Assembly: GCF_001865575.2 (NCBI RefSeq)
Contig: NZ_CP017565.2
Span: 186,001-250,000 of the forward strand
DNA from: Paraburkholderia sprentiae WSM5005
GTDB taxonomy: Bacteria > Pseudomonadota > Gammaproteobacteria > Burkholderiales > Burkholderiaceae
Length of the DNA: 64,000 nucleotides
Direction of reading: 5' to 3'
The notes beneath the pieces were generated by a model. The model did no database searches and had not been told where the DNA came from. It saw only the letters and a program-made list of their open reading frames with translations. This document shows, piece by piece, positions 33,133-64,000 of the stretch (positions are counted from its first letter, which is position 1; each line of letters starts with the position of its first letter). The position numbers and the translations under genes were made by a program.

Positions 33133-33148
33133 CGAGGAGAGCGCGGCT

Positions 33149-35894: not shown

Positions 35895-35964
35895 AACTCG
35901 CCATGACGATGCGCGCGAGCGACTGCTTCAGCGCCAATTGGCACGTCTCCAAGGCGTTTCCCGG

Positions 35965-35980: not shown

Positions 35981-36013
35981 ACTAGAGAAACGTCCATCCA
36001 TCAGGAGCACGTC

Positions 36014-37471: not shown

Positions 37472-37521
37472 GCCTCGAACCCGGTATACCGACCTGACGC
37501 CCCCGAACTCGAGAACATGCC

Positions 37522-38913: not shown

Positions 38914-38935
38914 CCCACCTAAAGGAGCACACAGC

Positions 38936-39827: not shown

Positions 39828-39851
39828 AGGAATCGTGAGGGGACCGAGACG

Positions 39852-40052: not shown

Positions 40053-40077
40053 ACCAGCGAAGCCACGGAGCCACATC

Positions 40078-40389
40078 ATGAGCGATACCTTCAGCGTTAC
40101 GCTGCCGAGCGGCGCCACCTGGACGCCGACCTTCGTCAACAGGCTCGACGAAGAAAAATGCATTGGTTGCGGACGTTGTTTCCGTGTCTGTCCGCGTGGC
40201 GTGCTGCAACTCGTCGGGCTTAACGAGGACGGCGCGCACATCGCACTGGACGGCGACGACGAAGACGAAGACGACGAGTACGAGAAGAAGGTGATGACTA
40301 TCGTGCATCGGGAACTGTGCGTCGGCTGCACCGCGTGCGCGAAGATCTGCCCGAAAAAGTGCTACACGCACGCCGCGGCCGTTCTCTGA
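40078..40389 (+). CDS. fdxB: FdxB-type 2[4Fe-4S] ferredoxin III
   Basis: A 103-residue nif-specific ferredoxin III with CIGCGRCFRVCP and CVGCTACAKICP motifs separated by a long acidic insert (LDGDDEDEDDEYEKK). It can donate electrons to nitrogenase or take part in cofactor assembly. It starts 25 bases after the DUF683 gene and precedes nifQ. Confidence 0.92.
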   Translation: MSDTFSVTLPSGATWTPTFVNRLDEEKCIGCGRCFRVCPRGVLQLVGLNEDGAHIALDGDDEDEDDEYEKKVMTIVHRELCVGCTACAKICPKKCYTHAAAVL

Positions 40390-40400
40390 GCGATGCCGCG

Positions 40401-40961
40401 ATGAACGCCTATGCAACCCTGATGGCGTGCGCGGTGGAAGCGGGCGATCCCACCGTGCTAGCACTGGCCGGCGTGCTATCGAGCGGGTTCGAGCACCACG
40501 GCGTCGATGTGCTGCCGATGCCCGGACTGGACGCCGACCAGACGCGCCGAATGCTCGCGCGCTGGTTCCCGGGTGCCGGGCCGGCGCTCGGTCTTACGTG
40601 CGTCTTGTCGCCCGCCACGATGCCGCGTGACGACGAACTGGAAGACCTGGTGGCGTTGCTCAATCACCATGCCGATCCGCGCGCCGGCCCGGCAGACGAG
40701 GCGAACTGCGTGGCCCATGCATTGGCCTGCGCGAGCCTCGGGCAAAACCACCTTTGGCAAGACCTGCTTCTGCCGTCGCGGCGCGAGTTGTCAGCATTGA
40801 TCAGCCACTGGTTTCCGCGGCTGGCCGCGAAGAATACGCATGGCATGAAGTGGAAGAAGTTCTTCTACAAGCAACTGTGCGAGCGCGAGGGCCTGGTCAT
40901 CTGCAAGACGCCGAGTTGTGGCGTCTGTTCTGACCATCCGCTTTGCTTTGGCGCGGAGTAG
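40401..40961 (+). CDS. nifQ: NifQ, molybdenum donor for FeMo-co
   Basis: A 186-residue NifQ protein that carries a Mo-Fe-S cluster and supplies molybdenum to NifEN/NifH. The C-terminal Cys motif CKTPSCGVCSDHPLC (Cx4Cx2Cx5C) is complete, with HGMKWKKFFYKQLCEREGL before it. ATG 40401 is chosen because an earlier ATG runs into a stop after three codons. Last gene of the nifENX operon. Confidence 0.95.
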   Translation: MNAYATLMACAVEAGDPTVLALAGVLSSGFEHHGVDVLPMPGLDADQTRRMLARWFPGAGPALGLTCVLSPATMPRDDELEDLVALLNHHADPRAGPADEANCVAHALACASLGQNHLWQDLLLPSRRELSALISHWFPRLAAKNTHGMKWKKFFYKQLCEREGLVICKTPSCGVCSDHPLCFGAE

Positions 40962-41129
40962 CAAAAATGCCCGGCCCGCGCCCCCCGTTGAGCAGGTGCG
41001 TCGCCGGTCCGCCTTGCCGGGCTTCTTCGGTAGATTCACAGTGAGAAAGCGCGGGACCTGCTAAAGCATGCTCATCGTTATCTATTCAGGCATCCAACCG
41101 AGAAATCGCACCACAAACCTTACATACCT

Positions 41130-41762
41130 ATGGATTCGTTCCAACCTGCTGCGTCTCCGGGGCCCCGCCCTCGCTATACACCCTGCACCCGGGCCTGCTA
41201 CCTGACGCTGCAATGGCCCGTTGCGGAGTCGCAGCAGCAAGGGCCGCGCGCCCGGGCATTGCCGCCCGCTTGCGTGCCCGCGCTGCCGCAACCGCCGCAC
41301 CGGCTACTCGCGATCTGCGACGAAGCGGGGTTGCGCGATCTGGCGCTGTGCCAGTTGCAGCGGCTCAGGCTTATGCTGCTGTTTGCACGCGTCGGTCACC
41401 GCTTCAAGTGCGTCGCGTCGCAGGTGGCCGACTTCGTGGTCGAGTCCTGCGGCAGGCTGCTGTATTACGGCGAGCGGCATGCGCATCTGCAGGCGGGCTC
41501 CAAGCCGCCGTTGCTGCTTGACGAAGAGGGCCGCGAACCCTGGCTGGTTCAACTTTGGTATGCGTTCGACGACGTCGGTTTCCCGCCCGCGCTGCGCGCC
41601 GACTTCTGGGGCTGGGCGAAGCCGCTGTCCGAGCATTGGCTGGCGCCGCACGCGCGTCATGCCGGCCCGACGCGCTACACGTACGACACGGTGCGTAGCT
41701 GGTTTCTCACTCCGGCAGCGGGCGAACGGCTTGCGGGCCATGCCACGAGGCGCTCGCCATGA
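41130..41762 (+). CDS. Nif-region protein of unknown function
   Basis: A 210-residue soluble protein. After a Pro/Arg-rich N-terminal 60 residues comes a helical core (CDEAGLRDLALCQLQRLRLM, LLFARVGHRFKCVASQVADF, LYYGERHAHLQAGSKPPLLL) and a Trp-rich end (LRADFWGWAKPLSEHW). The helices, size and a central His could fit a globin-like fold, but I cannot identify the family with confidence. It overlaps the next gene (ATGA), so the two form a pair. Confidence 0.6.
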   Translation: MDSFQPAASPGPRPRYTPCTRACYLTLQWPVAESQQQGPRARALPPACVPALPQPPHRLLAICDEAGLRDLALCQLQRLRLMLLFARVGHRFKCVASQVADFVVESCGRLLYYGERHAHLQAGSKPPLLLDEEGREPWLVQLWYAFDDVGFPPALRADFWGWAKPLSEHWLAPHARHAGPTRYTYDTVRSWFLTPAAGERLAGHATRRSP

Positions 41763-42307
41763 GACCCATGCCGCCTGCCGTTGCCGTAACGGTGCGATCC
41801 GAAGCGCAGCCCGTCATGAATCAGAACCGCGGCACATGCGTTCCCGACAGCAGTGCGAGCCTGTCGCAGGAGCGCACGCGGGCACATGTCGCGAGCCTGC
41901 AGCACGAGTTGTTCGCGGTTGAGCAGGCGCTGCTCGACGACCGCGCATTGAGCGGGCGTCGATGGGTTTATGTGGGCGGGCGGCCAAGCATCAACGCCGT
42001 GCTGCGTGCGCTGGTGGATGCGGCGGGAGGCGAGTTCGTTCATCACACCGGGACCATCGACGACGATAGCCGTGCCGAAGGCTTCGAGGCTTTGCTCTCA
42101 GGCGCCTACCGGGTGCTGTGCCCATTGGATCTGATCGACCCGGACTCGCTGGTCGCGCCGCGGCGGTTGTGCGCGCGTCACCGCGCGCCGTGGTCCGCTT
42201 TGCGTTCGTCGAGCGTGACGAGCTTCATCGCGGGCGTGTTCCGGGCTCGGCCTGCCCAGCGGCGCGGCGTGGTCGCAGCGTCGCGCTTCTGCCTGAGGCA
42301 TGGCTGA
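41759..42307 (+). CDS. DUF2325 domain protein
   Basis: A 182-residue protein. The N-terminal third is a predicted coiled coil (SLSQERTRAHVASLQHELFA, VEQALLDD); the rest is a DUF2325 domain (RRWVYVGGRPSINAVLRALV, EFVHHTGTIDDDS, SSVTSFIAGVF). Proteins of this type occur near nif genes, but their function is unknown to me. The last 20 residues look atypical, so an indel near 42240 may have changed the end. Confidence 0.7.
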   Translation: MRPMPPAVAVTVRSEAQPVMNQNRGTCVPDSSASLSQERTRAHVASLQHELFAVEQALLDDRALSGRRWVYVGGRPSINAVLRALVDAAGGEFVHHTGTIDDDSRAEGFEALLSGAYRVLCPLDLIDPDSLVAPRRLCARHRAPWSALRSSSVTSFIAGVFRARPAQRRGVVAASRFCLRHG

Positions 42308-42386
42308 CGTCGTCAAGACTTTACGTACCGCGAGATGTGGGCGCAAAACTTGCCTTTGACGTGGTCTTTCCACGAGAGGGCCTGCC

Positions 42387-42620
42387 ATGTCGGATTCCGC
42401 ACAACGCTACGGCCTTTTCCTCAACGTCGAGAACCCCGACGGCGACGCGCGCGATGCGCTGACGCAAGCGGTGCGTAACGCGCCGGCCGCCCGAACGTTC
42501 GGCTACCACGAGGTGTGGCTCGCCGAGCATAACTACAGGTCGTACGCGAACAGCAGCGCGCTGGCGCTGCTGTTCGCCCACATCGCGGCTCGTTTCCGTT
42601 GCCATATCGGGCTGCGGGGA
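42387..42620 (+). pseudogene. Luciferase-like monooxygenase, N-terminal remnant
   Basis: About 70 residues match the start of an FMN-dependent luciferase-like monooxygenase (RYGLFLNVENPDGDARDAL, FGYHEVWLAEHNYRSYANSS, ALALLFAHIA). The next 20 codons are unrelated and a stop follows at 42671, so at least three-quarters of the gene is missing. It faces nodJ and marks the junction between the nif and nod blocks. Confidence 0.75.
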
Positions 42621-42715
42621 TATTGTCGGCGCATGAGTCGCGTGCGCGGATGCACGAAGCGTTCGCGTTGATACGACATGGTGTTTTCCCACTCATTCGT
42701 ACTGGCCATAGCAGA

Positions 42716-43504
42716 TTAAGACATGAGGCGTCGACGTAACAGCGCCACTGACAGGAAGAACGGCAACACCGTGCAAATGCAGAGAGCGCCAATATGCAGG
42801 GCAACATAGCTCACCGGGCGTCCGAGCATCGGGGGACGGATAAGGTCGACGGAATGTGCCAGCGGTAAGAAGCGCGCTACGTCACAAAAAACGGCAGGTA
42901 GCTTACTGATCGGGAAGATCACGCCGCTCAGGAGCACCATGGGCGTGAGAACGAGCGTTTGATAGAACACGAAGTAATCGTGACTGGGTGCAAGCGCCGC
43001 GAGGATCATCGCCAGACTCGCGAAGGCGAGGCCAGTCAGGGCGATGGCAGGCGATGCGTAGAGAATGGATGACCACGCTGCATAACCCAGCACGGTGGCT
43101 ACCACCATGACGGCAATGCCGGCAAAAAAAGCCCTGGTGGCGGCCCATGCCAGTTCACCGAGAACGATATCGCCGAGCGTGAGCTGTGTACAGAGGATCG
43201 CTTCCCACATGCGCTGAACATGCATGCGAGAGAAGGCTGCGTAAATCGTTTCGAAGGTCGCGGCGGTCATTGCGCTCGTCGCGACCATACCCGCCGCGAG
43301 AAACGCGATATAAGATGCGCCATCGACGCGACCTACCATTATCCCGAAACCAAAGCCGAGGCCGAACAGATAAATCATAGGATCGGCAAGGTTACCGAGA
43401 ATCGAGGCAAACGCGACTTTTTTCCATGCCAGATAGTTGTGGCGCCACACTGCAACCCAGTTCCACAGGTTCGCGGGCAGGGCCGCTGCATAAAACTCTC
43501 TCAT
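42716..43504 (-). CDS. nodJ: NodJ, lipochitooligosaccharide export permease
   Basis: A 262-residue ABC-2 type permease with six predicted helices, matching NodJ ([60 protein letters not shown]). With NodI it exports Nod factors. It starts 3 bases after the nodI stop. Intact; last gene of nodBCIJ here. Confidence 0.94.
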
Positions 43505-43507
43505 CGT

Positions 43508-44422
43508 TCACTCCTTCATCCCGCGCCCGGTTAGCTGCAAAAAGACATCCTCGAGATTTGCTGGGCGCTGTAAAAGGCGCAGCGCCGTGCGCCCGCGCAA
43601 CTGTATGCACACCCGTTCCGGATCGGACACATAGCAGAAGAGGGTCTCACCACTGACCTCGATACGCTGCGCGTGCGGCGCGATCAACGTGCGCAGCTCA
43701 TGCGGATTGCCGCCGTGGATCTCGATCACGTGGCTCCCGATCTGTTCTGCGATCAGCGCGCGAGGCCCGCCTTCGGCGATCTTTCGACCCTCCGCCAGCA
43801 CACACAGTCGGTCGCACAACCGCTCGGCCTCTTCCATGAAATGGGTGGTCAAGAGGATCGTGGTGCCGCGCGCCAGCAGGGAACGCAGCCGTTCCCAGAT
43901 CAGGTGGCGAGCATGCGGGTCGAGACCCGTTGTTGGCTCGTCCATGACCAACAACTGTGGATCGTTGATCAGCGCGCGAGCCAGCATTAGCCGCCGCTTC
44001 ATGCCGCCGGATAGCTCGGTGACGCGCGCATTGACCTTGCTTTCGAGGCGGGCGAATTCGAGCAGCGATGGCACGACCGCTTCAATTTCACGTGTGCTCA
44101 TGCCAAAGTAGCGGCCAAACACCAGAAGGTTCTCGCGCACGGTGAACCCGGGCTCGAGGTTGTCGAATTGCGGCACTACGCCAATGCGCATACGTGCCGA
44201 GCGAGCGCGAGCCGGCACTGGCTCCCCGAGCACGATGATCTTGCCTGCGTCGGGCGGCGCCATGCCGAGAACCATACGCACCGTCGTGCTCTTGCCCGCG
44301 CCATTTGGCCCTAGCAGGCCGAAGCACTCTCCAGGCGCGACGCTGAACGATAATCCGTCGACTACGATCTTGTTGCCATATGACTTCCTTACGCTAGCGA
44401 AGCTGATTGCTGCCTTGGACAT
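43508..44422 (-). CDS. nodI: NodI, Nod factor export ATPase
   Basis: A 304-residue ABC ATPase with Walker [10 protein letters not shown], signature [15 protein letters not shown] and Walker [14 protein letters not shown]. It powers export of lipochitooligosaccharides through NodJ. A 271-base gap with no recognisable gene separates it from nodC. Confidence 0.95.
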
Positions 44423-44693
44423 GGGGATAAGAAGGAAAATTACGCGCTCGTCTTGGAGAAAAAGAAGCAGTTCTGCTGCCGCGGCCCGATTGAAAACGCC
44501 CTGTCCGATAGAAGATCCTTACCTGCTGCGGAATAGTTACTCACAATGGAGTACCAGTACTCCGGTGAATGCACTCGCGTTCGGAAGGCGCCAATTGAGC
44601 CATTGCGTGAGACGATCGCACTCAAGCGGGCCGCTGCCGATGGTGCGCGGTTCTGGGTTGGCGCAAGGGTCGAGGTCCTATATGTACGATTAA
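44423..44693 (-). other. Spacer between nodC and nodI
   Basis: A 271-base gap inside the nodBCIJ operon. A 61-codon open frame on the minus strand shows no similarity and no good ribosome site. nodI is usually closer to nodC, so a small gene or remnant may have been lost here. I see no promoter or nod box. Confidence 0.4.
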
Positions 44694-46052
44694 CTAATTG
44701 CCATCGAATGCTTCGTCAGACGTTGCTAACGTTGAGGACTCACACGCGTGATCCGGTCGACGGTGCGGAGTCGCAAGTCTTGACGCTGAAGTCATGATCG
44801 GCTTCGTAACCGGATCCGGAGTATCGGGCTGTTTTTCTCGAACGTTCGATACGTTGCCTGAAGAGCCACGGGACAGCCAATCGCTATTGCTCAATGTGCA
44901 CAGCGCATAGGCTTTCAGCGGGAGCAAGAGAAAGAGGTTAATGGGTGTGTGAAAAGAAAAGCCAAGAAATCGAATCTGGCGAGCGCGAACCGATGCCACG
45001 CTACAGCGGATCATCGTCAATGATGCGATTATCAGGGCAGTCCACCACGGCACTGTCGCTGTTAATGCGAGCTGCGCGAGCGCCGCTAGAAGCGATAAGG
45101 CGAGAAATAGCGAGCCCACATTCAGTCCGATCACGTCCAGCGTAAGGTAGCGATGGAGACAGGGCAGCAGGCGCAGCGAAAGCAACGTGTCCCGATAAGT
45201 ACTGCGCGCCCAGCGCAGTTGTTGGCGCAGATACGCCCCCAGTCTGTCCGGAACCACTGTCGCCGCAATGGCGTCCGGAACGTACTCGGTCCGATAACCT
45301 GCGGTCAGCATGAGAATCGTGAGATGGCGGTCCTCGCCGAAGTCGCTCGGTTTCCCGCGAAAAAACTGCGTCTCGTACTGGTCTAATAGCAAAAGAAGCA
45401 CGGACCGTCGGTACATGGTACACGGACCGCAGCAACACATAACAGCGCCGAAGCGAGCCTGTGCCGCGCGTTCTTCGTTGCAAGCCAACCAGTACTCCAT
45501 ATCGATCAGGCGGGTCAGCCAAGTGTCGCTCCGGTTGCTGGCCGTCAACTGCCCCATGGCGGCGCCTATCGTCGTGTCTCGCATTGTCAATACGAGCTTC
45601 TTGACGACATCGGGCGCCAGCGTCGTGTCCGAGTCGACGTTGAGTACCAGTTCCCCGGATGAAGAGCGTATCGCGGCGATCTGTGCCTTGCGCTTTCCCA
45701 TATTTTGGGGAAGCGTAATGAAGTTGAATCTCGGGTCGCGTGTGTACGCATCGTATACCGGCCTCACGGCGTCGAGATTCGCAGAACCATCATCAACCAC
45801 ATAGACCCGCAGTTTTCCGGCGTAGTCCTGGTTTGCAATGGACTCCAGGCACGCCGAGAGTGTGCGCGGTTGCTCGTTAAAGCACGGCACGATGACGTCC
45901 ACGTCCGGCAGAAAGTTGGAGTCGGCGGCATTGGGCGACTTCGGCGGAGCACTCGTGGGTAGGCCATGGAGGGCCTGTGCGCTTTTGTAAACAGTCGAGA
46001 GTAGTGCATACAATAAAACCGGGGCAGTGCTGATTGTGGCAATGGCATTCAT
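44694..46052 (-). CDS. nodC: NodC, N-acetylglucosaminyltransferase
   Basis: A 452-residue membrane glycosyltransferase (GT2) that builds the chitin oligomer backbone of Nod factors. Catalytic features: VVDDGS, NVDSDT, the acceptor region SDFGEDRHLT and the processive motif QQLRW. One N-terminal and three C-terminal membrane helices are predicted. It starts 14 bases after nodB. The C-terminal tail beyond the last helix is long and polar. Confidence 0.97.
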   Translation of the reverse strand: MNAIATISTAPVLLYALLSTVYKSAQALHGLPTSAPPKSPNAADSNFLPDVDVIVPCFNEQPRTLSACLESIANQDYAGKLRVYVVDDGSANLDAVRPVYDAYTRDPRFNFITLPQNMGKRKAQIAAIRSSSGELVLNVDSDTTLAPDVVKKLVLTMRDTTIGAAMGQLTASNRSDTWLTRLIDMEYWLACNEERAAQARFGAVMCCCGPCTMYRRSVLLLLLDQYETQFFRGKPSDFGEDRHLTILMLTAGYRTEYVPDAIAATVVPDRLGAYLRQQLRWARSTYRDTLLSLRLLPCLHRYLTLDVIGLNVGSLFLALSLLAALAQLALTATVPWWTALIIASLTMIRCSVASVRARQIRFLGFSFHTPINLFLLLPLKAYALCTLSNSDWLSRGSSGNVSNVREKQPDTPDPVTKPIMTSASRLATPHRRPDHACESSTLATSDEAFDGN

Positions 46053-47312: not shown

Positions 47313-48598
47313 GTGTCCGGTTTATTTGAGGTCGACAGGCGCGAGAGCGGTTGTTGACAGGGCATTCGGGGGTTTCATGGGTATCCACGATTTGAATTTT
47401 GAAATCAGCATTTGCGATCCTTTCGGGTTTGCGCGACTTGGGGTAGCGCATGAACGTGGGCAAGACGCTGTTTGCGCAAGTCATGGAGTTTGTGCCGTAT
47501 GGAAGACGTTTGGCCGCATCATCGAGCGACATCGCGGCGACGCGGGGGCGCATGCTTGAATGTGCCGATTTGTTCCGCATCATGGTCTTCGCGCAGTTGA
47601 CCTGGCGCGAGTCCATGCGCGACATCGAGGCCCGCCTGTCTGCGAATCGAGACAAGCTGTTTGATATGAGATTGAAGAACGTCCCGGCACTCTCGACGTT
47701 GTCGGATGCGTTGAATCTGCGCGACTGGAGCATCTATCACGCGCTGGCAATGCGCCTTGTCACCCGCGCCCGAGCGCTTTACGCGACCCAGCCGCTGGAC
47801 ATAGATCTCGATGCGACGGTCTATGCGCTCGATGCCACGACCATAGATTTGCGCCTGTCCCTGTTCGAGTGGGCGCCGTTTCGCACGACCAAGGCGGCGG
47901 TCAAGATGCATACGCTGCTGGATTTGCGCGGCGCGATCCGCGCCTTCATCCACATCAGCGATGGCAAGATGCACGAGGTGGGCGTGCTAAATTTTCTGCC
48001 CATCGAAGCTGGCACGTTTCACGTCATGGAACGCGGCTATCTGGACTTCGCGCCGCTGTTCGAGCTGCATCAGGCAGGCGCCTTCTTCGTCGCACGAGCC
48101 AAACGCAACATGAACGCATGTCGCGTCTATTCGGATGCCACCGACCGCAGCACGGGCGTGATCTGCGACCAGAGCATCGCCTGAACTGCTTTTACGCCGC
48201 GCAGGACTATCCCGAGCGTTTGCGGCGCATCCGCTGATTTTTCTGACCAACAACCCGACGCTGCCGCCGCTGACCGTTGCACCGCTGTGCAAGAACCGCT
48301 GGCTTGTCGACCTGTTCTTCAAGTGGATCAAGCGGCACCTGCGCATCAAGCGATTCCTCGGCACAAGCGAGAACGCGGTGAAGACGCAAGTCTGGTGCGC
48401 CGTCTGCACCTACGAGTTGATCGCCATCGTCAAAAAGGAGCTTCAACTCGATGCCTCGCTCTATACGTTGCTACAGATTCTTTCGGTCTCCGTATTCGAG
48501 AAAGCCGAGATTTCAAGCGCCTTGCGGCCCGATCTATCACTCCCGGAAATGCCTCAATCTGGTGAGCAACTGAATTTGTTCGAAATTTAACCGGACAC
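47313..48598 (+). mobile_element. IS4-family insertion sequence, degraded
   Basis: Ends carry inverted repeats GTGTCCGGTTTATTTG (left) and, on the other strand, GTGTCCGGTTAAATTT (right), giving a 1286-base element. No clear target duplication flanks it. The transposase inside is broken. It inserted into, or deleted into, a group II intron gene next to the nod box. Confidence 0.75.
47450..48590 (+). pseudogene. IS4-family transposase, frameshifted
   Basis: Blocks of an IS4 DDE transposase are readable: CADLFRIMVFAQLTWRESMR, DATVYALDATTIDLRLSLFE (first Asp), TKAAVKMHTLLDLRGAI and, after a stop and frameshift at 48182-48240, LVDLFFKWIKRHLRIKRFLG with the catalytic Glu region altered. Two compensating indels also occur near 47493-47560. 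It is not functional. Confidence 0.78.
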
Positions 48599-49055: not shown

Positions 49056-50519
49056 CATCTCCTTATACACAACTCGACGCTTGCGGAAACGATGGTGGAG
49101 TAGCAAAGCAGTCAGAAGGGGGTTGTTAACAACGCGGATTTCGCGTTTACTCTCGGATTTTCGGCATGAAGATCCGAGACGACGCGGGAGCATGGGTGGA
49201 CGAGGAATTTGAGACGCTGGATTTGGGTGATCCACGGAGAGACCGGCGCGCGAAGGAGCTGGTCAAGCGGTTCGCCAGCCGGCCCACGGCCAGCATTCCG
49301 GGCGCGTGCGAAGGCTGGGCCGAGACGATGGCGGCATATCGCTTTCTGGGCAATGAGCGCATCGACTGGCGCGACATGATGCAGCCGCATTGGGACCGTA
49401 CCACGGCACGCATGGGGCAGTTGCCGGTGGTGCTGTGCATTGCCGATACGACAGAGCTGAACTTTAACGGTCAGGATATCGAAGGGGCCGGCCCGCTCAG
49501 TTATGAAGCACAGGTGGGCATGCATCTTCACGCGACCTATGCGGTGACACCGGATCGGGAGCCGCTGGGTGTGATGAACGCATGGATGTGGGCGCGCGAG
49601 CCACGCGATGCAAACGGCAGGCGTGGCGGTGTCAGGGAAAGTGTGCGGTGGATCGAAAGCTATGAGATCGTGGCCGAACAGGCACGGGCCCTGCCTGGCA
49701 CGCGACTGGTGTATGTGGCCGATCGTGAAGGTGACATCGCCGCGCTCATGCAGCGTGCGCAGGACCTGGGTGAACCGGCGGACTGGCTGATCCGGTCCCA
49801 GCACAATCGTGCCCTGAGGGACGAAGAAAAGCTGTGGGAAAAGGTCCATGCGAGTAACGTGCTCGGCCATATCAGCTTCGTACTGGCCGGGCGCAGTGGC
49901 CAGAAGGCGCGTGGAGTGAGGCAGGAACTGCGTAGCCAGCGCGTCACGCTGCCCGGGCGCGCCGGTGTCACGCTCACCTGCGTCGAGGCGTATGAAGTGG
50001 ATGCGCCAGCGGGTGTGAAGCCCGTCATCTGGCGTCTTGTGACCAACCGCGAAGCGGGCGATGCGCATGCGCTCATCGAAGTCGTTGACTGGTACCGCGC
50101 GAGATGGGAAATAGAAATGTTCTTCAATGTCCTGAAGAACGCCTGCCGGGTTGAGGCGCTGCAACTCTCACAGATGGAGCGCGTGGAAAAGGCGCTCGCG
50201 CTGTACATGGACGTATCGTGGCGTATCGCGCGGCTCATGCGTGTCGGCAGGACGTGTCCGGAGCTGGAGGCGTCGCTGTTCTTCGCGGCTGACGAGATAC
50301 ACGGCGCTCACGTGCTCTGTAAGAAGGCACGTCCGAAAAAACCACCGACGCTCAACCAGGTGATACGGATGGTCGCGTCACTGGGCGGATTCCTCGGGCG
50401 CAAGAGCGACGGCGAACCGGGCGCGAAGACGCTTTGGATTGGCACGCAGCGAGTCATGGATGCTGTCATCACCATCCAGATCTTGCGCGACGGCTACGAC
50501 ACTTCTGTATAACGAAATG
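49056..50519 (+). mobile_element. Intact IS4/IS50-type insertion sequence with 9-bp duplication
   Basis: The element has imperfect 19-base inverted ends, CATCTCCTTATACACAACT (left) and CATTTCGTTATACAGAAGT (right, other strand), 15 of 19 matching and similar to Tn5 ends. GGTCCACTG occurs on both sides (49047-49055 and 50520-50528), a 9-base target duplication as in Tn5. The transposase is complete, so this is the youngest element seen in the window. Confidence 0.9.
49166..50512 (+). CDS. IS4-family (IS50-type) transposase
   Basis: A 448-residue Tn5-like DDE transposase. The N-terminal DNA-binding part (WVDEEFETLDLGDPRRDRRA), the first Asp in CIADTTELNF, the second in YVADREGDIAAL, and the YREK-like block with Glu in WYRARWEIEMFFNVLKNACR are all present. 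Intact, with no frameshift. It lies inside the element at 49056-50519. Confidence 0.93.
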   Translation: MKIRDDAGAWVDEEFETLDLGDPRRDRRAKELVKRFASRPTASIPGACEGWAETMAAYRFLGNERIDWRDMMQPHWDRTTARMGQLPVVLCIADTTELNFNGQDIEGAGPLSYEAQVGMHLHATYAVTPDREPLGVMNAWMWAREPRDANGRRGGVRESVRWIESYEIVAEQARALPGTRLVYVADREGDIAALMQRAQDLGEPADWLIRSQHNRALRDEEKLWEKVHASNVLGHISFVLAGRSGQKARGVRQELRSQRVTLPGRAGVTLTCVEAYEVDAPAGVKPVIWRLVTNREAGDAHALIEVVDWYRARWEIEMFFNVLKNACRVEALQLSQMERVEKALALYMDVSWRIARLMRVGRTCPELEASLFFAADEIHGAHVLCKKARPKKPPTLNQVIRMVASLGGFLGRKSDGEPGAKTLWIGTQRVMDAVITIQILRDGYDTSV

Positions 50520-50566: not shown

Positions 50567-51955
50567 TCATCGAGTACATTGAGAAATGATTCGCCGCAGG
50601 TGCTTGCAAATTGCTTTACTGCCACCGCTAGCAACCAGTGACATGATCAGTGCGCTCGGCAGCAAACCAAAAAAAACGCCGCACCAGACCCCGGTTGCTG
50701 ACACGAGATTAACGCTGCCGAGCCAAAGCCGCTGCGTTGCGAACCCGTCTCCCAGAACTGCAACACCTATCCACAGGCTAATTATCTGCACAAATGCGGG
50801 AAACGCATTAATCCCAAGTGCACGCAGAGCCGCTGCGGCACTAGTTTGAAGGCAGTCAACGAAAATCACTAATGACAGGAAGATAAGAATTCTGTTCGAG
50901 ATCGACAAAACTCTCTCGTCCGCCGTATGAAGTCGGAAGACAGCGGCTCCAAAAAACATATGTAAGCTGGCAAGTAAGAAGCCGACTGCCATCGTGACGA
51001 AGATCGCTGTTCTTGCTTTGCGGCCCGCTGCAATTTGTCCCTCAAGCCCGAATGCTTGACTTATCTTGACAGAAAATAAAACCGCTAGGGAAACGACCAA
51101 TGTGTACCCGACGTTATAGACGTTAGAGACGATTTGATGGGCGCTCAGCTGGTCGGCGTCGAACTTGCTTATCAATATGGTCATGTATCCGAATGCTGCA
51201 ACTTCGGAAAGCGTCGAAAATGCGACGGGGAGGCCAGTTCTCAAGAGAAGCACCAACTGAGATGGCTCTCGAGACAGAAAAAAATCAAATCGGAATACGG
51301 AAAATCGCCTATCGAATAAAAACAAAAGCGTGGCGCCTATACCCATGATATAGAATGCAATGGTGGTTGACAGGCCACAACCAATCAGGCCAAGCTGGAA
51401 GTATGGGCTGTCGACCAGCGCTAGGGATAGGGTAATTTTTACTATTAAACCGATGCCTTGCAGTACTGTAATATAGGCTGTGGCCCGAATCGAGTTTGCG
51501 ATGCAGGCTATAATTCGAAAAAGGATGAACGGCAAAGCGCTAGACGTGAGAGCATCAAGATAATCTTGAGTCGCGACCACTAAATAGGGTGATTGGTTCG
51601 ACCAATGATGGACTGTCGAAAAATACTTCATAACAAAGAAAGAGAATGAAGCAGCAAAAATTCCAGACGCAAATCCGTAGTAAGCGATGTATTTAAGTGT
51701 TGCTACGGATTTCTCTGCGATAATTCTCGATGCATTTATTGTGATTGACGAAAAAAACGCGGTTATGATTACACCAAGTGGGCCGTAAATCGCGTTCCCC
51801 AATGCCAGCGCACCGAGGAGATCTGGTCTTCTGTTGCCGACGATAAGAACGTCTACTACGGCATAGGCAACTACGAACAGTTGCCCGACCCAAATCGAAA
51901 ATAAGAAAGAAAGATCGCGATTTAAATTGACTAAAAATGGTTCATGTTCGGACAC
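50567..51955 (-). CDS. MATE-family multidrug/metabolite exporter
   Basis: A 462-residue inner-membrane antiporter of the MATE family with about 12 transmembrane helices. The family pattern is clear (SIWVGQLFVVAYAVVDVLIV, LGALALGNAIYGPLGVIITA, RTGLPVAFSTLSEVAAFGYM). Codon use is AT-richer than the nif genes, suggesting separate origin. It follows the opine-type dehydrogenase gene on the same strand after 307 bases, and no own promoter was seen, so it probably exports the product of that enzyme. Confidence 0.88.
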   Translation of the reverse strand: MSEHEPFLVNLNRDLSFLFSIWVGQLFVVAYAVVDVLIVGNRRPDLLGALALGNAIYGPLGVIITAFFSSITINASRIIAEKSVATLKYIAYYGFASGIFAASFSFFVMKYFSTVHHWSNQSPYLVVATQDYLDALTSSALPFILFRIIACIANSIRATAYITVLQGIGLIVKITLSLALVDSPYFQLGLIGCGLSTTIAFYIMGIGATLLFLFDRRFSVFRFDFFLSREPSQLVLLLRTGLPVAFSTLSEVAAFGYMTILISKFDADQLSAHQIVSNVYNVGYTLVVSLAVLFSVKISQAFGLEGQIAAGRKARTAIFVTMAVGFLLASLHMFFGAAVFRLHTADERVLSISNRILIFLSLVIFVDCLQTSAAAALRALGINAFPAFVQIISLWIGVAVLGDGFATQRLWLGSVNLVSATGVWCGVFFGLLPSALIMSLVASGGSKAICKHLRRIISQCTR

Positions 51956-52262
51956 TTGAAATCTCCGGTGTCAAGAAACCAGTACCCTCGACGTGTATGC
52001 AAGGCGCAGCTCTACGTCGACGCCTTCTAGCGCTTCGCGATCATTAAGCGGAGTGACGCAAGTGTTCCGTCTCCGACGGCGGTTTCACAGAAAGCTGATC
52101 GACGAGATGTCCCGCAGGCGCAGTCTAGTTGGCAAGCGTGTCGAATAGGATGTCCAGAGGATGACGAGCAAATCGCTTGTCCAGGGCGATCGGTTTCCGG
52201 TAGGCCGACTGCATTCCTAGCGACTGCTCGCCCCTGCCGGCATTGCACTGTTTTCTCTAATG
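51956..52262 (-). other. Gap between dehydrogenase and exporter genes
   Basis: A 307-base stretch between the two genes of the putative opine unit. One minus-strand frame holds a coherent-looking scrap (FARHPLDILFDTLAN, stop, TAPAGHLVDQLSVKPP), perhaps a decayed gene. No sigma54 promoter or strong terminator was found, so read-through from the dehydrogenase promoter is likely but unproven. Confidence 0.4.
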
Positions 52263-53360
52263 TCACCGCGCCCATGGAAGGTGGCAAGTCGCGCTATCAA
52301 TAAACCGCAACAGTTCTGTTTTCGACATGTGATCCATGCCAAGGCGCTTCAAATTGCGGCCACTTTTAAAATAGTCAACGCCGTTGATGACCGACGCGAT
52401 GTCCACCACAGCCTTGATGGTCGGAGCCTGGACTTCTACTCTCGAGCCAAGCTCGTACCAAGGGACCAAAATATAGGGTACATCCTCTGACACGTATCTG
52501 TCTTGCATGTGAGTGGGCGTTATCTTGTGCGCATTGTGAACCTTAGTTTGTGACGCGAAATCCGAAAATGTCTCACAAGCTCCGCCGTAGAAACCGACCA
52601 TTTCCTGCAAAACCGTCTGCAGTCGAAACCCGAAGGCTTCCGCGATCTTCAGGCGCTCGGCGTCTACCGCCTCTATAACGTTCCCGACTGAGGGGGAAAT
52701 CCCATCACGATAGAACAGGAAGTCTCCTTTCCTACTTTCTATCCAACCTGTGTTGAGGATTCCTGCCGCCGGATGAATGACACCATTATTGGACTGCATT
52801 CCGATTTCAAAAACGTTGTTGCACCACAGGAGCGTCTTAGGAAATATCTCGGAGATTTGCGACCACTGCTTCTCCCCCATATTGTTCGGAAGCGCTGCGA
52901 TGGGGAGGCTGCTCTTGACTCCGGTGATCGACACTTCGCCGTCCTTGACCCAAGAGGCGTATGGAGAAGCGTTGGTTTCTAGGATGGCCTGCGCGTTCAA
53001 CTCGTTAGGACTGAGCAAGGCGAAGAAGTTGCCATTGATGACTACGATAACGTGATTACTGAGATCGAAGCCCTTCAAATCATTAATAATGTCGGCGTGC
53101 CCGTACGATGGCACAGTGACCACAAGAAAGTGTGAAAATTGTACCGCATCGGCCATCTCGGTGGTTAAAGTTGGATTAAATTCACCTTCTATCTCCATAC
53201 GAGAGGCAAGGCAACCTTTTTTCCGGATCGCGTCAATATTGCCTCGGTGTTTGGGATGACCATAAAGAAGAACATCAATTCCTCGGCTGGCAAGGTCAGC
53301 CGCGAAGGTGCACCCAGTATTTCCGGCGCCGATGATTGAAACAGACAGCTTTGAAGACAT
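52263..53360 (-). CDS. Opine-type (octopine/nopaline family) dehydrogenase
   Basis: A 365-residue NAD(P)-dependent enzyme of the octopine/nopaline dehydrogenase family, which reductively joins the amino group of an amino acid to a 2-oxo acid. The Rossmann motif GAGNTG is at residues 11-16; the C-terminal domain holds the catalytic-type His196 in GVIHPAAGILNTGWIE. ATG 53360 follows GGAGAGG. A sigma54 promoter (53472) and two NifA sites lie upstream, so it should be made together with nitrogenase. A MATE exporter follows. Substrates cannot be read from the sequence. Confidence 0.87.
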   Translation of the reverse strand: MSSKLSVSIIGAGNTGCTFAADLASRGIDVLLYGHPKHRGNIDAIRKKGCLASRMEIEGEFNPTLTTEMADAVQFSHFLVVTVPSYGHADIINDLKGFDLSNHVIVVINGNFFALLSPNELNAQAILETNASPYASWVKDGEVSITGVKSSLPIAALPNNMGEKQWSQISEIFPKTLLWCNNVFEIGMQSNNGVIHPAAGILNTGWIESRKGDFLFYRDGISPSVGNVIEAVDAERLKIAEAFGFRLQTVLQEMVGFYGGACETFSDFASQTKVHNAHKITPTHMQDRYVSEDVPYILVPWYELGSRVEVQAPTIKAVVDIASVINGVDYFKSGRNLKRLGMDHMSKTELLRFIDSATCHLPWAR

Positions 53361-53471
53361 CGCCTCTCCTTCTTCACAAATTGCAATTCGAATGATGGGT
53401 CTCGTAGACCCCTCGCCTAAAATGACAACGAATGTCGATGTGCAGATCCGACACCGCTGCCAATAGAGACT

Positions 53472-53487
53472 CGCAACAATCGCGCCA
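53472..53487 (-). promoter_or_regulatory. Sigma54 promoter of the opine dehydrogenase gene
   Basis: On the minus strand: TGGCGC-GATTG-TTGCG, a GG-N10-GC match very like the nifV promoter. The start expected near 53460 gives a 100-base leader. Confidence 0.78.
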
Positions 53488-53574
53488 ACTGCAAAAAAGC
53501 AGTCAAAAAAGTTTTCCGCTTGCCATGCCAATGGTCGAATAGAGCCCCGTTGGGCGCCCGGCCGATTACCACTG

Positions 53575-53590
53575 TGTCGCGGACTCGACA
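53575..53590. promoter_or_regulatory. NifA upstream activating site 1 (opine dehydrogenase)
   Basis: TGTCGCGGACTCGACA, an exact TGT-N10-ACA palindrome, 88 bases upstream of the -24 element. It differs from the nifH site at only three positions. Confidence 0.82.
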
Positions 53591-53612
53591 AAGCCCACAC
53601 CTGCTGCAGGGT

Positions 53613-53628
53613 TGTCGAGTTCGCGACA
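53613..53628. promoter_or_regulatory. NifA upstream activating site 2 (opine dehydrogenase)
   Basis: TGTCGAGTTCGCGACA, a second exact TGT-N10-ACA palindrome, 126 bases upstream of the -24 element and 38 bases (between centres) from site 1, so both lie near the same DNA face range. Confidence 0.82.
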
Positions 53629-53880: not shown

Positions 53881-54609
53881 ACGCGTGAGGGGATACCTGG
53901 CCATCGGCGTGAACATGGCCGGCCACAAGGAAGTCCTGGGACTGTGGATCGGCCCAGACCGAGGGGGCCAAGTTCTGGCTGCAGGTGGTCACTGGGCTCA
54001 AGACGCGCGGCGTGCAGGACATCTTTATCGCCTGCGTCGACGGGCTTAAAGGCTTTCCTGAAGCCATTGAAGCGGTCTACCCAAAAGCGGCCGTGCAACT
54101 GTGCATCGTGCATATGGTGCGCAACAGCCTAAACTTCGTACCGTGGAAAATGCAGCGGGAAGTCGCCGCCGACCTGAAGACGATTTACACTTCATCGACC
54201 GTCGAACTGGCCGAACAGATGCTGGGCGCCTTCGAGGCCAGGTGGAAGAAGGACTATCCGTCAATCGGGCAGAGCTGGCGACGCAACTGGGCACGGGTGA
54301 TTCCGTTCTTCGATTACCCGCCGGAGATCAGGAAAGTGATTTACGCCCCGGAGGAAGTCCCCTTGCGGGACACCACGAATGCCATAGAATCGATCAACAT
54401 GAGCCTGCGCAAGGTGATCAAGACCCGCAGCTCGTTCCCGACCGATGAGGCCGTCACGAAGCTGTTTTACCTGGCCCTGAATAACATCAGCACGAAGTGG
54501 ACGATGCCGATCCGCGACTGGAAGGCCGCACTGAACCGCTTCACGATCCAGTTCGAAGAGCGGCTGGTGTCGGGTTAAACCTCAACCCGTTTACACAAAA
54601 TTCCGGACA
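53881..54609 (+). mobile_element. IS256-family element, 5'-truncated
   Basis: The right end carries GTTTACACAAAATTCCGGACA-type inverted repeat (54589-54609). The left end and the first half of the transposase are absent. It lies upstream of the NifA sites of the opine dehydrogenase gene. Confidence 0.7.
53885..54578 (+). pseudogene. IS256-family transposase, truncated and frameshifted
   Basis: The text starts at GYLAIGVNMAGHKEVLGLWI, shifts frame near 53955, and continues VVTGLKTRGVQDIFIACVDG, QLCIVHMVRNSLNFVPWKMQ and TTNAIESINMSLRKVIKTRS with the catalytic Glu. The first catalytic Asp region is lost. Clear Mutator/IS256 family signature. Confidence 0.85.
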
Positions 54610-55131: not shown

Positions 55132-56510
55132 CTATTCGTTTTGCCTGAATATTCTGTACATCACCGTGATTTCGTGCAGGACTAGAAATCCACGCCAGAT
55201 GACGGTAGGGCCGGGCGGACGATCATGCTTTCGAGTGAGATATCCGCCGAGTCTGGCGATCCACAAGATGACCTGCGCCAGTGATGGCGGTTTATCAGGT
55301 ATTTCAGTACTGCCATGCGTACGACAGTAGAGGCTCGCCACTCGATTGGCTGCAGCAATACTTCGCATGGAAGGTTGCCATCAAGCCTTGCAAGCAACAT
55401 GGAGTACAGGATCCTCCAGCTTACTACGGCGAACAATGCGGTGGCGCGGACGAATCGATCGAGATTGCCAAATTGGCGGGCTTCAATGCGACAGCCACTT
55501 TTAAGCACACGATGCCACGATTCAATCGTCCATCGGCGCGCATACCATGCCAGACGCTCAAGGGCCTGAGCGTGCGTTTGTGTAGGCACCGAAGTCAGTA
55601 GAAGCCATTCCAATGGCTCTGCTCCTTCGTCCAAGTTCGTTTCCTGCGCATGAATTGCAAACACTTCAATTTCGGGAAGCTTCTCACGACGACGATTTTG
55701 CGGCTGACGAAGGCGTACGGGCATGCAGCGCACAAGCAGCCGTGCGGTGCGTGCCGGGCGGTTTTCGCGTGCAGGCACCTGCAGTTGCGCCTTTCCAAGC
55801 ACTGGCGAGGCCAGCACGGTTTGCCACAAATATCGATCGAGGTGAGCAACGCGTCGGTTCCACGATGCGCGCACCAACCAGTCGACGCCGGCAGGCCGCT
55901 GCGCCAGGAACACATCATAGACATCGCCTTCACGGTCGCTCACGCCGATGACATGCGTGCACGGACAGTGCGTCTTGAGTACGCCCAGTTGCTCGATGCC
56001 TTCGAGCCATTTTGCGCTCTCTTTCCGTTGTACGGTTCGTTGCCCGCGCAGATGTTTCTTGCCCAACTCCTCGTGCCTACGTATCCAGGTCTTCATCCCG
56101 ATCAGCCCGAGTGGCAGTCCCTCTGGCGTGAGCGCAAGCAGACTGTGTATCAGGAAACCACGCACGTGTGGATCGGAGCCGTATCCCAGACCTTCGGTTG
56201 CCCGCAAATGAGACAAATTGAACTCGGTGGTGTCCTGAACAGCAAGGACGACTGGCACCTGTTGCATACGACACAGCGTTTGACCGATATGCCCACCCAG
56301 CAAGCCATCGACATCCACGTGCGAGTTGTCGAAAAAACGATATGCCGCCTTCAGCTCCGAACCATTGAACGACTGCGGAAAAGAGCAATGTGGGCCCAAC
56401 GAAAGCTTGCGTGCCAGCGTCACGAGCCGTCTGGTCAGGCGAGCGTCGCCGAGCTCGGCGGTGCCAAACTCTTCATTTGCCCAATCATCAAGGTCAGAGG
56501 TGTCCGACAA
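55132..56510 (-). pseudogene. IS4-family (IS50-type) transposase, frameshifted
   Basis: A second Tn5-like transposase, different in sequence from that at 49166. From ATG 56510 (MSDTSDLDDWANEEFGTAEL) it keeps VVLAVQDTTEFNLS, HVIGVSDREGDVYDVF and RRWTIESWHRVLKSGCRIEA. A frameshift near 55290-55350 moves the end (IPDKPPSLAQVILWIARLGG, RPPGPTVIWRGFLVLHEITV) into another frame. Its insertion cut the LysR gene. The terminal repeats could not be fixed by eye. Confidence 0.85.
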
Positions 56511-59639: not shown

Positions 59640-60205
59640 GGGGAGGAGGAGGCGGGGAAATAGTTCGACTACGCCCTGTCTCTTACTCCACTCTCGACGT
59701 GGCAGGGCTGGCTCTACGTGGCGTTCGTGATCGACGTGTTCGCCCGACGGATTGTCGGTTGGCGCGTCAGTTCGTCGATGACTACAGACTTCGTTCTGGA
59801 TGCACCTGAACAGGCACTTTATGCGCGACGCCCAGGCGGCGATGGAACGTTGATACATCACTCCGAGAGAGGCTCGCAATACGTTAGCATTCGCTATAGC
59901 GAGCGACTGGCCGAAGCGGGCATAGAGCCCTCGGTTGGTAGCCGTGGCGACAGTTACGGCAACGCACTGGCCGAGACAATCAACGGTTTGTACAAGGCCG
60001 AACTGATTCATCGCCGCACCTGGAAAACACGGGAGTCCATCGAGTTGGCTACGCTGGAATGGGTGGCCTGGTTCAATCATCATCGATTGATGGAACCCCT
60101 CGGCTACATCCCGCCTGCTGAAGCTGAGGCAAACTACTATCGGCAACTTGAAACATCGGTCGCCGAATCCGCATCAACTTAAACCAACCAGCCTCCACGA
60201 TTTCC

Positions 60206-60547
60206 GGGCGGTTCAGTGCCGGAAGGGCGATAAGGCGCGTCGCCATCTTGAACTTCGACTCGAGCTCCTGCCAGGTGACATGCTCGCCCTTGCCCTTCGG
60301 AGCAGTATCTCCAGAGGTAAACGTTCCGCTACCACACGTGATAGCCACGCGCGAATAGCGTTCTCTTGGATCGGGTGGGAAGATGCACAATTTTCCGTTT
60401 CGGTGTCGTCGCTGCGACAACCGGACCACCAGCGGAGTTGTGGGCCTCGGCTTGGCAGGCTTGTCGACCGTTTGATGGTGCCGGTTGGCCGCTACTTGGC
60501 TAACACGCAGAAGCACGATCGGGGCGGGTTCGGGTCGCCAGGCGATT
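60206..60547. other. Gap after the IS3 element
   Basis: A 342-base stretch. The minus strand has a scrap reading KGEHVTWQELESKFKMATRL, IALPALNR, cut by the IS3 end at 60205 and unidentified. No other gene is convincing. Confidence 0.35.
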
Positions 60548-62128: not shown

Positions 62129-63255
62129 TCAGAATTTGTGACGAATTGCGACACGAGCGACGACCTGGTTCTGGGCCGACGACACGTCAGCGGCACCTGG
62201 CACATAAGCGAAGTCGAGCACAGTTCCGGTTTGGTCGCCGCCAACGTGCTGATAGACGCCCTGAACGTATAGATCGGTGCGTTTGGACAGGTTGTAATCG
62301 GCCATCCAACCAACCATTTGGTAGCTTGGGTTAAGCTTGCCCGCGGTACTGTTGAAGTCGGCTCGCGTGTATGTGTACATGGCCCCCGCATAGAACGCCG
62401 AGGTGAACTGATACTTGCCGTTTATTTCGAAATTCTGAAAGCGCAGGCTGGAAAGCGTGCCTGCGGCGGGGGTAATGTCACCGACGTATCCGGATGCAGT
62501 CGGATTAGCTACGTACGTGTTCGTGTACGCGACGCCAACATTAGCGGACCCGAAGGTGTAGCTCGCGCCTGCGCCGAAAATACGCAATTTGCTTCCTACG
62601 AAGTTCTCGTCGCCTCCATTGTTGATCGCACCGCCGGCTGTAGCCGATGGATTGTTGGCCTGCAGATACGCCGCAGCGAGAAGCAGTCCACCGGTAGTGT
62701 ACTGCGCACCGAGGCTGTATTGGCGATTGTTGGCAAAGTTCGTATCGTTCGAGAAGCTATACGTGCCGCCAAACTGAAACCCTGCGATCGTCGGACTGGT
62801 GTACTTTACGGTATTGTTTACGCGGAAACTGTTGTCCGTGTTGTCATTGTCATAGGGGTGCGAAAAAAGATAGCCCGCCCAGTTGCCGTTCGCGGTGGTC
62901 TGCGCCAGGTAGTCGACGACCGAATCATACTGTCGACCCAATGTCACAAAACCGAACTGATTCGAGGAAATTCCGACGTATGCCTGACGGCCGAACATCA
63001 GCCCGCCTTGCCCGAGGCGACCATTGTTGACATTGAAGCCGTTCTCCAGTTTGAAAATCGCGCTCAGCCCGCTGCCAAGATCCTCTGTTCCTCTAAGACC
63101 CCAGCGGCTACCTTGAGCGTAGCCGCTCTGGAGTTCATACACGTTCGAACCTGCGACATTGTTGGTGTAATCGAAGCCTTCATCAATCAGACCGTAAAGC
63201 GTCACAGTAGATTGAGCGAATACCGGAGTTGTGATAGTGGAAATAAAAAGTATAG
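62129..63255 (-). pseudogene. Burkholderia-type general porin, start frameshifted
   Basis: A 16-strand porin: mature part from QSTVTLYGLIDEGFDYTNNV through GSRWGLRGTEDLGSGLSAIF to the C-terminal ARVAIRHKF with the final Phe. The signal peptide (KITLAILFISTITTPVFAQS) is in frame with the barrel, but the only start, ATG 63255 followed by AAAAAATC, is one A short, putting the ATG out of frame. This is a homopolymer indel: a sequencing error, a pseudogene or slippage. The barrel itself is intact. Confidence 0.82.
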
Positions 63256-63415: not shown

Positions 63416-64000
63416 CTACTTCAGGCTACCAGAGAGAAACTGCCTGAGTCGTTCGCTGCATGGCTTACTCAATACTTCCTCGGGAAGCCCCTCTTCCTCC
63501 GTGCATCCTTGATGAAGAAACACCACATGATTCGATACATTGCGGGCGAACCCCATTTCATGCGTAACCACGATCATTGTGCGTCCTTCGTCTGCGAGCT
63601 TTTGCATTACCTTGAGAACTTCACCTACCAGCTCCGGGTCGAGTGCAGATGTTGGTTCATCGAACAGCATCACGTCAGGATTCATCGCCAACGCGCGCGC
63701 AATCGCGACACGTTGCTGCTGCCCTCCCGAGAGATGCGATGGATACTGCTTCTCCACGCGCGGCGCGAGTCCGACTTTCTCCAGGTATTCACGCGCGCGC
63801 TCTTCCGCCTCGCGACGTGGCAGCCCGAGCACATGTACCGGCGCTTCAACAATGTTCTCGAGAACGTTCATGTGCGCCCAAAGATTGAAATGCTGGAACA
63901 CCATCGAGAGTTTCGTCCGGATACGCTGCAGCTGCTTCGGGTCCGCGACGTCGAGATCGCCGGATTTATCGGCCTTCGTCTTTACGGCTTCGCCATCGAC
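63416..64000 (-). CDS. Polar amino acid ABC transporter ATPase (partial)
   Basis: The C-terminal 194 residues of a HisP/ArtP-type ATPase; the gene begins outside the window. Present: Q-loop region [18 protein letters not shown], signature [15 protein letters not shown], Walker [14 protein letters not shown] and the switch His in [10 protein letters not shown]. The Walker A lies beyond the window end. It powers uptake of an amino acid such as histidine, arginine or an opine-like compound; opine importers use the same ATPase family. Confidence 0.93.

Follow-up and report, generated by a model that had tools for sequence, protein, structure and literature searches.

The window analysed here is a 64,000-nucleotide stretch of the Paraburkholderia sprentiae WSM5005 genome (contig NZ_CP017565.2, positions 186,001 to 250,000), which lies on a 487.8-kb replicon (C5) of a 7.84-Mb genome (G000) carrying nodulation and nitrogen-fixation genes. 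On its minus strand, a gene of the opine dehydrogenase family (ODH) and a MATE family exporter gene follow a predicted NifA- and sigma-54-dependent promoter. A preliminary description of the window had reported an opine dehydrogenase family gene, a MATE exporter, a GG-N10-GC promoter and two exact TGT-N10-ACA sites, and all of these are present where it had placed them. In the direction of transcription, the features are:

53613-53628, minus strand: predicted NifA site 1, TGTCGCGAACTCGACA, of the form TGT-N10-ACA
53575-53590, minus strand: predicted NifA site 2, TGTCGAGTCCGCGACA, of the form TGT-N10-ACA
53472-53488, minus strand: predicted sigma-54 (-24/-12) element, TTGGCGCGATTGTTGCG, 11/13, kept in two other Paraburkholderia genomes (G077 and G096)
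52263-53360, minus strand: ODH, opine dehydrogenase family protein of 365 amino acids, ATG start with AAGAAGGAGAGG ahead of it
51956-52262, minus strand: ODH-MATE spacer, the last 58 bases of which match the MATE leader directly after the promoter in G077
50567-51955, minus strand: MATE family exporter of 462 amino acids, GTG start, PF01554

Residues 179-325 of ODH match PF02317 with 143.8 bits (cut-off 30), corresponding to the C-terminal Octopine_DH helical domain, which follows a Rossmann domain with the GAGNTG motif at residues 11-16. The closest fold is that of Arthrobacter N-(1-D-carboxylethyl)-L-norvaline dehydrogenase (CENDH; 1bg6), an enzyme for which we know of no nodule or nif link, and octopine dehydrogenase is also among the nearest. 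ODH H196 and D293 align with H202 and D297 of 1bg6, and both are invariant in 42 aligned sequences; we take this His/Asp pair to be catalytic. The reading frame is open and retains all invariant residues. Family, fold and the conserved pair support the earlier call of an opine-type enzyme and make it likely that ODH synthesizes an opine by joining a 2-oxo acid to an amino acid. The exporter matches PF01554 with 79 bits in two stretches, that is, two MatE domains, and TIGR00797 with 126.1 bits, below the cut-off of 147.4; among the matches listed, its four relatives (58-97% identical) are all named Paraburkholderia.

NifA-type sites have the form TGT-N10-ACA, and sigma-54 promoters carry a -24/-12 element of the GG-N10-GC type. 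Scored as matches to 13 informative positions of the sigma-54 consensus, the ODH element reaches 11/13, whereas the nifH promoter on C5, our positive control, reaches 9/13. The two NifA-type sites lie 88 and 126 bases upstream, as had been described, or 102 and 140 bp above the element in the count that gives 97 bp for the nifH control, so that ODH has TGT-N10-ACA approximately 100 bp ahead of a -24/-12 element. Site 1 is one base apart from the NifA site of nifH on C5 (TGTCGCGAAATCGACA). On its own, TGT-N10-ACA showed no excess in the window (12 found versus 8.8 ± 3.0 expected), and loose sigma-54 matches were as common in the window as in shuffles (33 versus 34.5). When the 400-bp region upstream of ODH was simulated 50,000 times by a Markov model, a promoter with at least one site arose in 2 sequences and a promoter with two sites in none. 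C5 as a whole carries three site-and-promoter combinations. In 40 Markov sequences the average was 0.375 and the highest count 2, and no combination there had two sites. Apart from the one at ODH, the C5 combinations are located approximately 0.7 kb before nifA and where a homocitrate-synthase-like gene begins. The combination upstream of ODH is not a product of chance. The extended form TGTCG-N6-CGACA occurs 18 times in the genome (reversed control, 4), with 6 copies on C5, three of them adjoining nifA, nifB and nifH, and 4 near a second nifH at 1.47-1.50 Mb of another replicon, C2; the ODH pair is the only pair of such sites within 100 bp in the genome. A strict site-plus-promoter pattern with a gap of 40-70 bp gave 0 matches on the same genome, the true spacing being longer than the allowed gap. 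The second nif region (C2 1466622-1496575) has a nifH that is 99% identical, and three of its four NifA-type sites are identical to C5 sites. A hairpin or insertion-sequence end was considered as the origin of the two ODH sites, which are near-perfect inverted copies, and was rejected because G077 and G096 keep both sites, at the 38-bp spacing, before MATE, and because three other genomes have sites of this kind ahead of ODH.

To place the ODH-MATE arrangement among its relatives, 144 genomes of the genus were searched, with ODH taken at E 1e-60. Relatives of the MATE gene were present in 4/144 and ODH in 3/144. In G077 and G096, where the MATE protein is 82% and 78% identical to that of the window, respectively, the promoter stands directly before MATE without ODH, with both NifA sites (38 bp apart) and the sigma-54 element kept. 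The region upstream of MATE in G077, where MATE lies 2.8 kb from nifK, matches the region upstream of ODH in the window at 395 of 473 bases (84%), and the promoter region of G096 is 77% identical to that of the window and 81% to that of G077. The 58-bp MATE leader of G077 recurs immediately ahead of the window MATE (49/58), and the window ODH lies cleanly between the MATE promoter and MATE. Because a homologous promoter directly precedes MATE in these two other Paraburkholderia, we interpret ODH and MATE in the window as one predicted NifA operon, as the preliminary description had proposed. G096 also retains an ODH-like leader and, at 75.6% identity (E 2.4e-4), approximately 45 bp of the window's post-ODH spacer, suggesting that ODH was lost in the relatives; this is more likely than a gain in the window genome, although not proven.

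A related locus with published nodule expression data is found in P. phymatum (G070), whose MATE protein BPHY_RS37730 (Bphy_7634) is 58% identical to that of the window. According to the available part of the nodule RNA-seq data, matE Bphy_7634 shows a log2 fold change of -8.21 (approximately 300-fold down) in nifA-mutant bacteroids, its upstream neighbour Bphy_7633, a ligase gene, -8.45, Bphy_7636 -5.92 and Bphy_7637 -7.21, compared with -7.40 and -4.88 for the nifH genes Bphy_7753 and Bphy_7808 (PMC8305402); Bphy_7633 is also listed at -3.7 in rpoN nodules in the portion available of a second study (PMC5979394). Upstream of Bphy_7633 we found a sigma-54 element (11/13, 469 bases before the start) with a NifA-type site 94 bases above it. 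These motifs and the published NifA dependence therefore bring the prediction rule into agreement with independent data for one locus. The P. phymatum genes Bphy_7633-7637 (D-ala-D-ala-ligase-like, matE, non-ribosomal peptide synthetase-like and short-chain dehydrogenase/reductase) resemble the window in having a related MATE (58%), a location on a symbiotic plasmid and, as far as those published data go, NifA dependence in nodules; they differ in lacking an opine dehydrogenase alongside and in forming a different biosynthetic set. No ODH was detected in P. phymatum at E 1e-60, a threshold that leaves room for weaker members of the family on its plasmids. Control of ODH-MATE by NifA appears well supported by the motifs, by the homologous promoters in G077 and G096 and by the reported NifA dependence of the P. 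phymatum MATE relative (available part of PMC8305402), giving strong comparative support to the regulation first proposed from the motifs.

Named ODH relatives of 68-74% identity come from Mesorhizobium and Paraburkholderia, and a single Ensifer locus stands at 70%; in Mesorhizobium and Ensifer the range is 70-74%. At E 1e-60, ODH was found in 3/144 genomes of its own genus, 2/146 of the Mesorhizobium genus, 1/394 of the Ensifer family and 2/398 of its own family, the last two sets being drawn samples. nifH was present in all six ODH genomes examined. In a tree of 45 rows, 15 ODHs form one clade (support 95/94), 12 of them from rhizobial genera by name or genome and 3 being unnamed metagenome proteins. 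Within it, the Paraburkholderia sequences group together (99/98) and are placed among the alpha-rhizobial rows with support 92/87 in this midpoint-rooted tree. A promoter with a NifA site precedes ODH at four of six loci, namely those of G000, G139, G145 (a Mesorhizobium metagenome-assembled genome) and G146 (Ensifer sp. IC4062), each with at most 2 matches in 5,000 Markov controls; background tiles gave 45/17,492, real sites included. At the remaining two loci, G144 (Mesorhizobium WSM3859) and G058, the motifs are missing. The G058 ODH (locus L065, perhaps P. mimosarum) is frameshifted, cut by a contig end and preceded by transposase-like sequence, and is either a decayed copy or an assembly fault. 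The nodB match in G139 falls into two pieces in one frame and was not called broken. More distant ODHs, 57% identical to that of the window, are encoded on the Agrobacterium-group plasmids pAtAB2-73d and pAt2788a in the arrangement MATE, histidinol-phosphate-aminotransferase-like gene, ODH, with MATE two genes upstream on the same strand; unlike the window, these plasmids have a MATE that is not alignable by BLAST to the window's and no nif genes in the 17 kb shown.

In two alpha-rhizobial genomes, ODH adjoins a set of genes of the octopine catabolic type. The order in G145 is GntR, ABC ATPase, binding protein, two permeases, MLE, OoxB, 2Fe-2S, OoxA, RidA, ornithine cyclodeaminase, CtlX and DDAH-like, and next to the DDAH-like end stand a divergent methyltransferase and then ODH; G146 has a similar locus, in which methyltransferase and ODH are separated by a second MLE. 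Both contain the row ABC uptake, ooxB, 2Fe-2S, ooxA, RidA, ocd, with a different internal ABC order and an inserted MLE, relative to occR, occQMPT, ooxB, 2Fe-2S, ooxA, RidA, ocd in the octopine-type operon of pTiAF1/95. The G145 ornithine cyclodeaminase scores 566.6 bits (NCBIfam cut-off 350) and CtlX also passes its cut-off, whereas the DDAH model does not. Among the 12 matches listed, G145 OoxA is 66-68% identical to OoxA-annotated proteins of Agrobacterium-group plasmids (66% on pTiAF1/95); G146 OoxA was compared with G145 OoxA only, at 75%. The first catabolic-operon genes tested (GntR in G145 and G146, ABC in G145) have no NifA site, and for the two GntR genes beside the G145 ODH the MocR model gives 24-27 bits (cut-off 650). 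Separately, the GntR gene after ODH in G145 has a NifA-type site (TGT-N10-ACA; locus L057, 17435-17568) 133 bases ahead of it and no sigma-54 element. The same octopine-type catabolic operon is present on a plasmid of the nodule isolate Phyllobacterium zundukense Tri-48 (L105, 5502-17204), where the 25.5 kb read show neither an annotated ODH nor an annotated methyltransferase; this strain is a possible opine consumer.

The methyltransferase near ODH, a feature of all three alpha-rhizobial genomes, is similar to PRMT9 and PRMT7 (best E 2.7e-22). In G145, ODH and the methyltransferase have divergent sigma-54 elements that share the single NifA site between them; the G146 methyltransferase has a sigma-54 element (12/13) and no site, and that of G144 has neither. 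PRMT-like enzymes and free-arginine methylation, together with the chemistry of octopine breakdown, form the background to this gene set. Because a PRMT-like methyltransferase gene lies near ODH with DDAH-like, CtlX and ornithine cyclodeaminase genes, the loci suggest, by their presumed chemistry, that the alpha-rhizobial product would be an N-methylated arginine opine. An ATP-grasp L-amino-acid-ligase-like gene is also found near ODH in G144 and G146. Its paralog (64%) in G144 (C7:99435-100631) has a sigma-54 element (12/13) and a NifA-type site 99 bp further up. The ligase beside the Ensifer ODH has only distant matches in the window's genome (best E 9.9e-11).

An opine-oxidase-like cluster is linked to ODH on C5 (249416-262492, 10-23 kb from ODH) and encodes amino-acid-type ABC uptake, LysR, OoxB-like, 2Fe-2S, OoxA-like and RidA-like proteins, together with a second binding protein, MmgE/PrpD and MLE. 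The other features of the window are:

63416-64000, minus strand, continuing past the window end: ABC transporter ATPase, first gene of the linked cluster
62129-63205, minus strand: porin, 77-78% relatives of which adjoin ODH in G139 and the ABC transporter cluster in P. phymatum
60190-60369, minus strand: piece of the linked cluster's MmgE/PrpD, 82% over 60 amino acids
54719-55117, minus strand: truncated copy of the linked cluster's LysR, 97.6% over 123 amino acids
44694-46726, minus strand: presumably nodC and nodB, approximately 4 kb from MATE, with a deacetylase domain in nodB
29062-33132, plus strand: presumably nifH, nifD and nifK, the nifH promoter serving as positive control

The LysR and MmgE pieces are located between the linked cluster and ODH. 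Transposase-like genes or remnants, assigned by eye, flank ODH-MATE on both sides (window 47450-48565, 49166-50512, 53985-54578 and 55182-56510), and a second, apparently truncated nodB/nodC-like copy was seen by eye before the window (C5 176817-177900). An OoxA/OoxB-type oxidase occurs on the same contig as ODH in all five genomes that could be judged, with OoxA 4.8-22.4 kb away and 1-3 such genes per genome (E 1e-20). The C5 OoxA is 49% identical to that of pTiS4 and approximately 60% to generic Burkholderia-group proteins, and is thus not close to the Ti-plasmid OoxA. No NifA-type site was found within 450 bases upstream of the cluster's OoxB, both binding proteins, MLE and MmgE. MLE was tried as an exclusive marker of ODH loci and rejected, its close relatives being widespread among the matches listed. 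The P. phymatum relatives of the C5 ABC transporter are 84% identical for the ATPase, 79% for the binding protein and 72-79%, over the main parts, for the permeases; these and the porin relative lie at 31088-44730 of pBPHY02, in a cluster reported as NifA-dependent in nodules in the data available, and no sigma-54 element with a NifA site at the usual spacing was found there.

Together, we consider it probable that ODH-MATE is a NifA-driven operon by which bacteroids make and export an opine, forming a nodule-specific, rhizopine-like system with Agrobacterium-type chemistry. NifA and sigma-54 would drive ODH and MATE as one transcript in nitrogen-fixing bacteroids, and ODH would reductively join a 2-oxo acid to an amino acid, the likeliest being a basic one such as arginine, because the alpha-rhizobial ODH relatives adjoin octopine-type catabolic genes. 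MATE would export the product, a role that we infer from the operon structure and from the second MATE near the 57% ODHs on Agrobacterium-group plasmids. Free-living kin with opine uptake and oxidase genes might then use it, on the pattern of the mos/moc rhizopine system and of Ti-plasmid opines. For this last step, feeding of kin, which the preliminary description had also proposed, indirect support comes from the octopine-type catabolic operon beside the ODH relative in two alpha-rhizobial genomes and from the oxidase cluster on C5. It is plausible by analogy with the alpha-rhizobial loci, and for the window's genome we go no further than to infer it, because relatives of the linked beta-rhizobial transporter are themselves on in nodules.

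Several observations weigh against this interpretation. Neither enzyme, metabolite nor expression results were found for the window ODH. ODH and this MATE occur together in only one of the six genus genomes having either, that of the window, and no MATE of the window type lies near ODH in G139, G144, G145 or G146. Among the promoters, the motifs missing at G144 count on this side, and in the sigma-54 element of G146 the C at -12 is absent. The P. phymatum MATE accompanies another biosynthetic set, and the exporter's substrate is therefore not tied to opines. On the catabolic side, the parts in G144 are scattered, with ornithine cyclodeaminase in pieces, and the oxidases beside ODH fall into four separate lineages, 35-45% identical (four rather than five because G145 and G146 share one). 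C5 has no ornithine cyclodeaminase, CtlX, DDAH-like gene or methyltransferase at E 1e-12, and the methyltransferase, present in 3/3 alpha and 0/3 beta genomes tested, is absent genome-wide from the window's genome at E 1e-8. The linked C5 cluster is of a more generic kind and may serve another substrate, because its OoxA, OoxB and MLE have relatives in many bacteria that are not known to hold this ODH.

Some of this evidence would suit use of the product inside the nodule, as a plant-directed signal, nitrogen carrier or osmolyte, with bacteroids taking it or related basic amino acids back up and no feeding of kin. The P. phymatum relatives of the C5 ABC transporter are NifA-dependent in nodules, falling in nifA nodules in the available data (PMC8305402), so that such uptake would be on in bacteroids; in a species that has the same MATE type and no ODH at E 1e-60 (weaker members on its plasmids not being excluded), this agrees with bacteroids, rather than kin outside the nodule, being the cells that take it up. 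Against it, the octopine-type catabolic operon adjoining two alpha-rhizobial ODHs is preceded by GntR, with no NifA site at the first genes tested, and an oxidase cluster is linked to ODH in 5/5 judged genomes; we regard in-nodule use as rather unlikely. Still more doubtful is the alternative that MATE is the real NifA-driven unit and ODH a passenger between promoter and exporter, its product incidental. The promoter directly before MATE in G077 and G096 and the restriction of ODH-MATE to G000 among 144 genomes would agree with a passenger, whereas NifA/sigma-54 motifs precede ODH in three other genomes, the ODH-like leader and approximately 45 bp of spacer (75.6%) in G096 suggest loss there rather than gain in G000, and the ODH frame is open and lacks none of the invariant residues. 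The metallophore reading raised in the preliminary description, in which ODH would belong to a staphylopine- or pseudopaline-type pathway supplying metal to nitrogenase-making cells with MATE as exporter, is very improbable: metallophore dehydrogenases share the ODH fold, the 57% relative on pAtAB2-73d adjoins siderophore uptake genes and a Mesorhizobium opine dehydrogenase gene is associated with growth on nickel in the available part of PMC5315480, but the nearest folds are CENDH and octopine dehydrogenase and no metallophore partner genes were found in the neighbourhoods read, no genome-wide search having been made.

Beyond the NifA-driven opine operon of the window lies a wider proposal, which we advance tentatively and as somewhat short of an even chance: both classes of nodule bacteria would run their own opine economy, with a synthase that NifA switches on during nitrogen fixation (joined to an exporter in Paraburkholderia and to an arginine methyltransferase in Mesorhizobium and Ensifer) and, in kin outside, an uptake and oxidase operon of the Ti-plasmid type to consume the exported opine. 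In Mesorhizobium, the product would then be an N-methylarginine opine, opened by OoxAB and processed by the DDAH-like enzyme, CtlX and ornithine cyclodeaminase. Searches of one open-licence library brought up no account of an opine dehydrogenase under NifA control, in agreement with the preliminary description, which knew of no described beta-rhizobial case; no opine dehydrogenase was seen in the available parts of papers on the M. loti NifA regulon (PMC3538637) and on auxin in P. phymatum (PMC9554594), and PMC5748707 had no match to the terms looked for.

If the opine reading is true, the opine strategy of Agrobacterium exists inside mutualistic nodules too, with ODH relatives in alpha- and beta-rhizobia. 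An enzyme, a promoter and a metabolite would then be at hand with which to ask concretely how bacteroids that do not return may benefit their relatives, a long-standing question, and there would be a lead toward inoculant-specific nutrients. To our knowledge, rhizopines are the main described nodule-made compound tied to kin benefit; they are based on inositol chemistry and occur in some Sinorhizobium and Rhizobium strains. The octopine-type Ti plasmid (occ/oox, pTiAF1/95) shares opine dehydrogenase chemistry with the window and has the same gene blocks in two alpha-rhizobial relatives, whereas the synthase here is predicted to be bacterial and NifA-driven and not transferred to the plant. The alpha-rhizobial loci depart from it in having GntR rather than OccR, a changed ABC order and extra MLE, CtlX, DDAH-like and PRMT-like genes, and the window version in having no ocd on its replicon (E 1e-12). 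In the Sinorhizobium rhizopine system, as described in the available part of PMC10107442, mos synthesis genes are under NifA and moc genes are catabolic. ODH-MATE would work like that system, in which the mos enzymes define rhizopine synthesis. The likeness lies in predicted NifA-driven synthesis in bacteroids with a proposed benefit to kin, and perhaps in the linkage of presumed catabolic genes on the symbiotic replicon, the genes examined in this work having no NifA site with promoter. The chemistry differs: mos makes an inosamine by ononitol dehydrogenase and aminotransferase, whereas the window uses an opine dehydrogenase and an exporter, with a linked oxidase of the opine-oxidase type.

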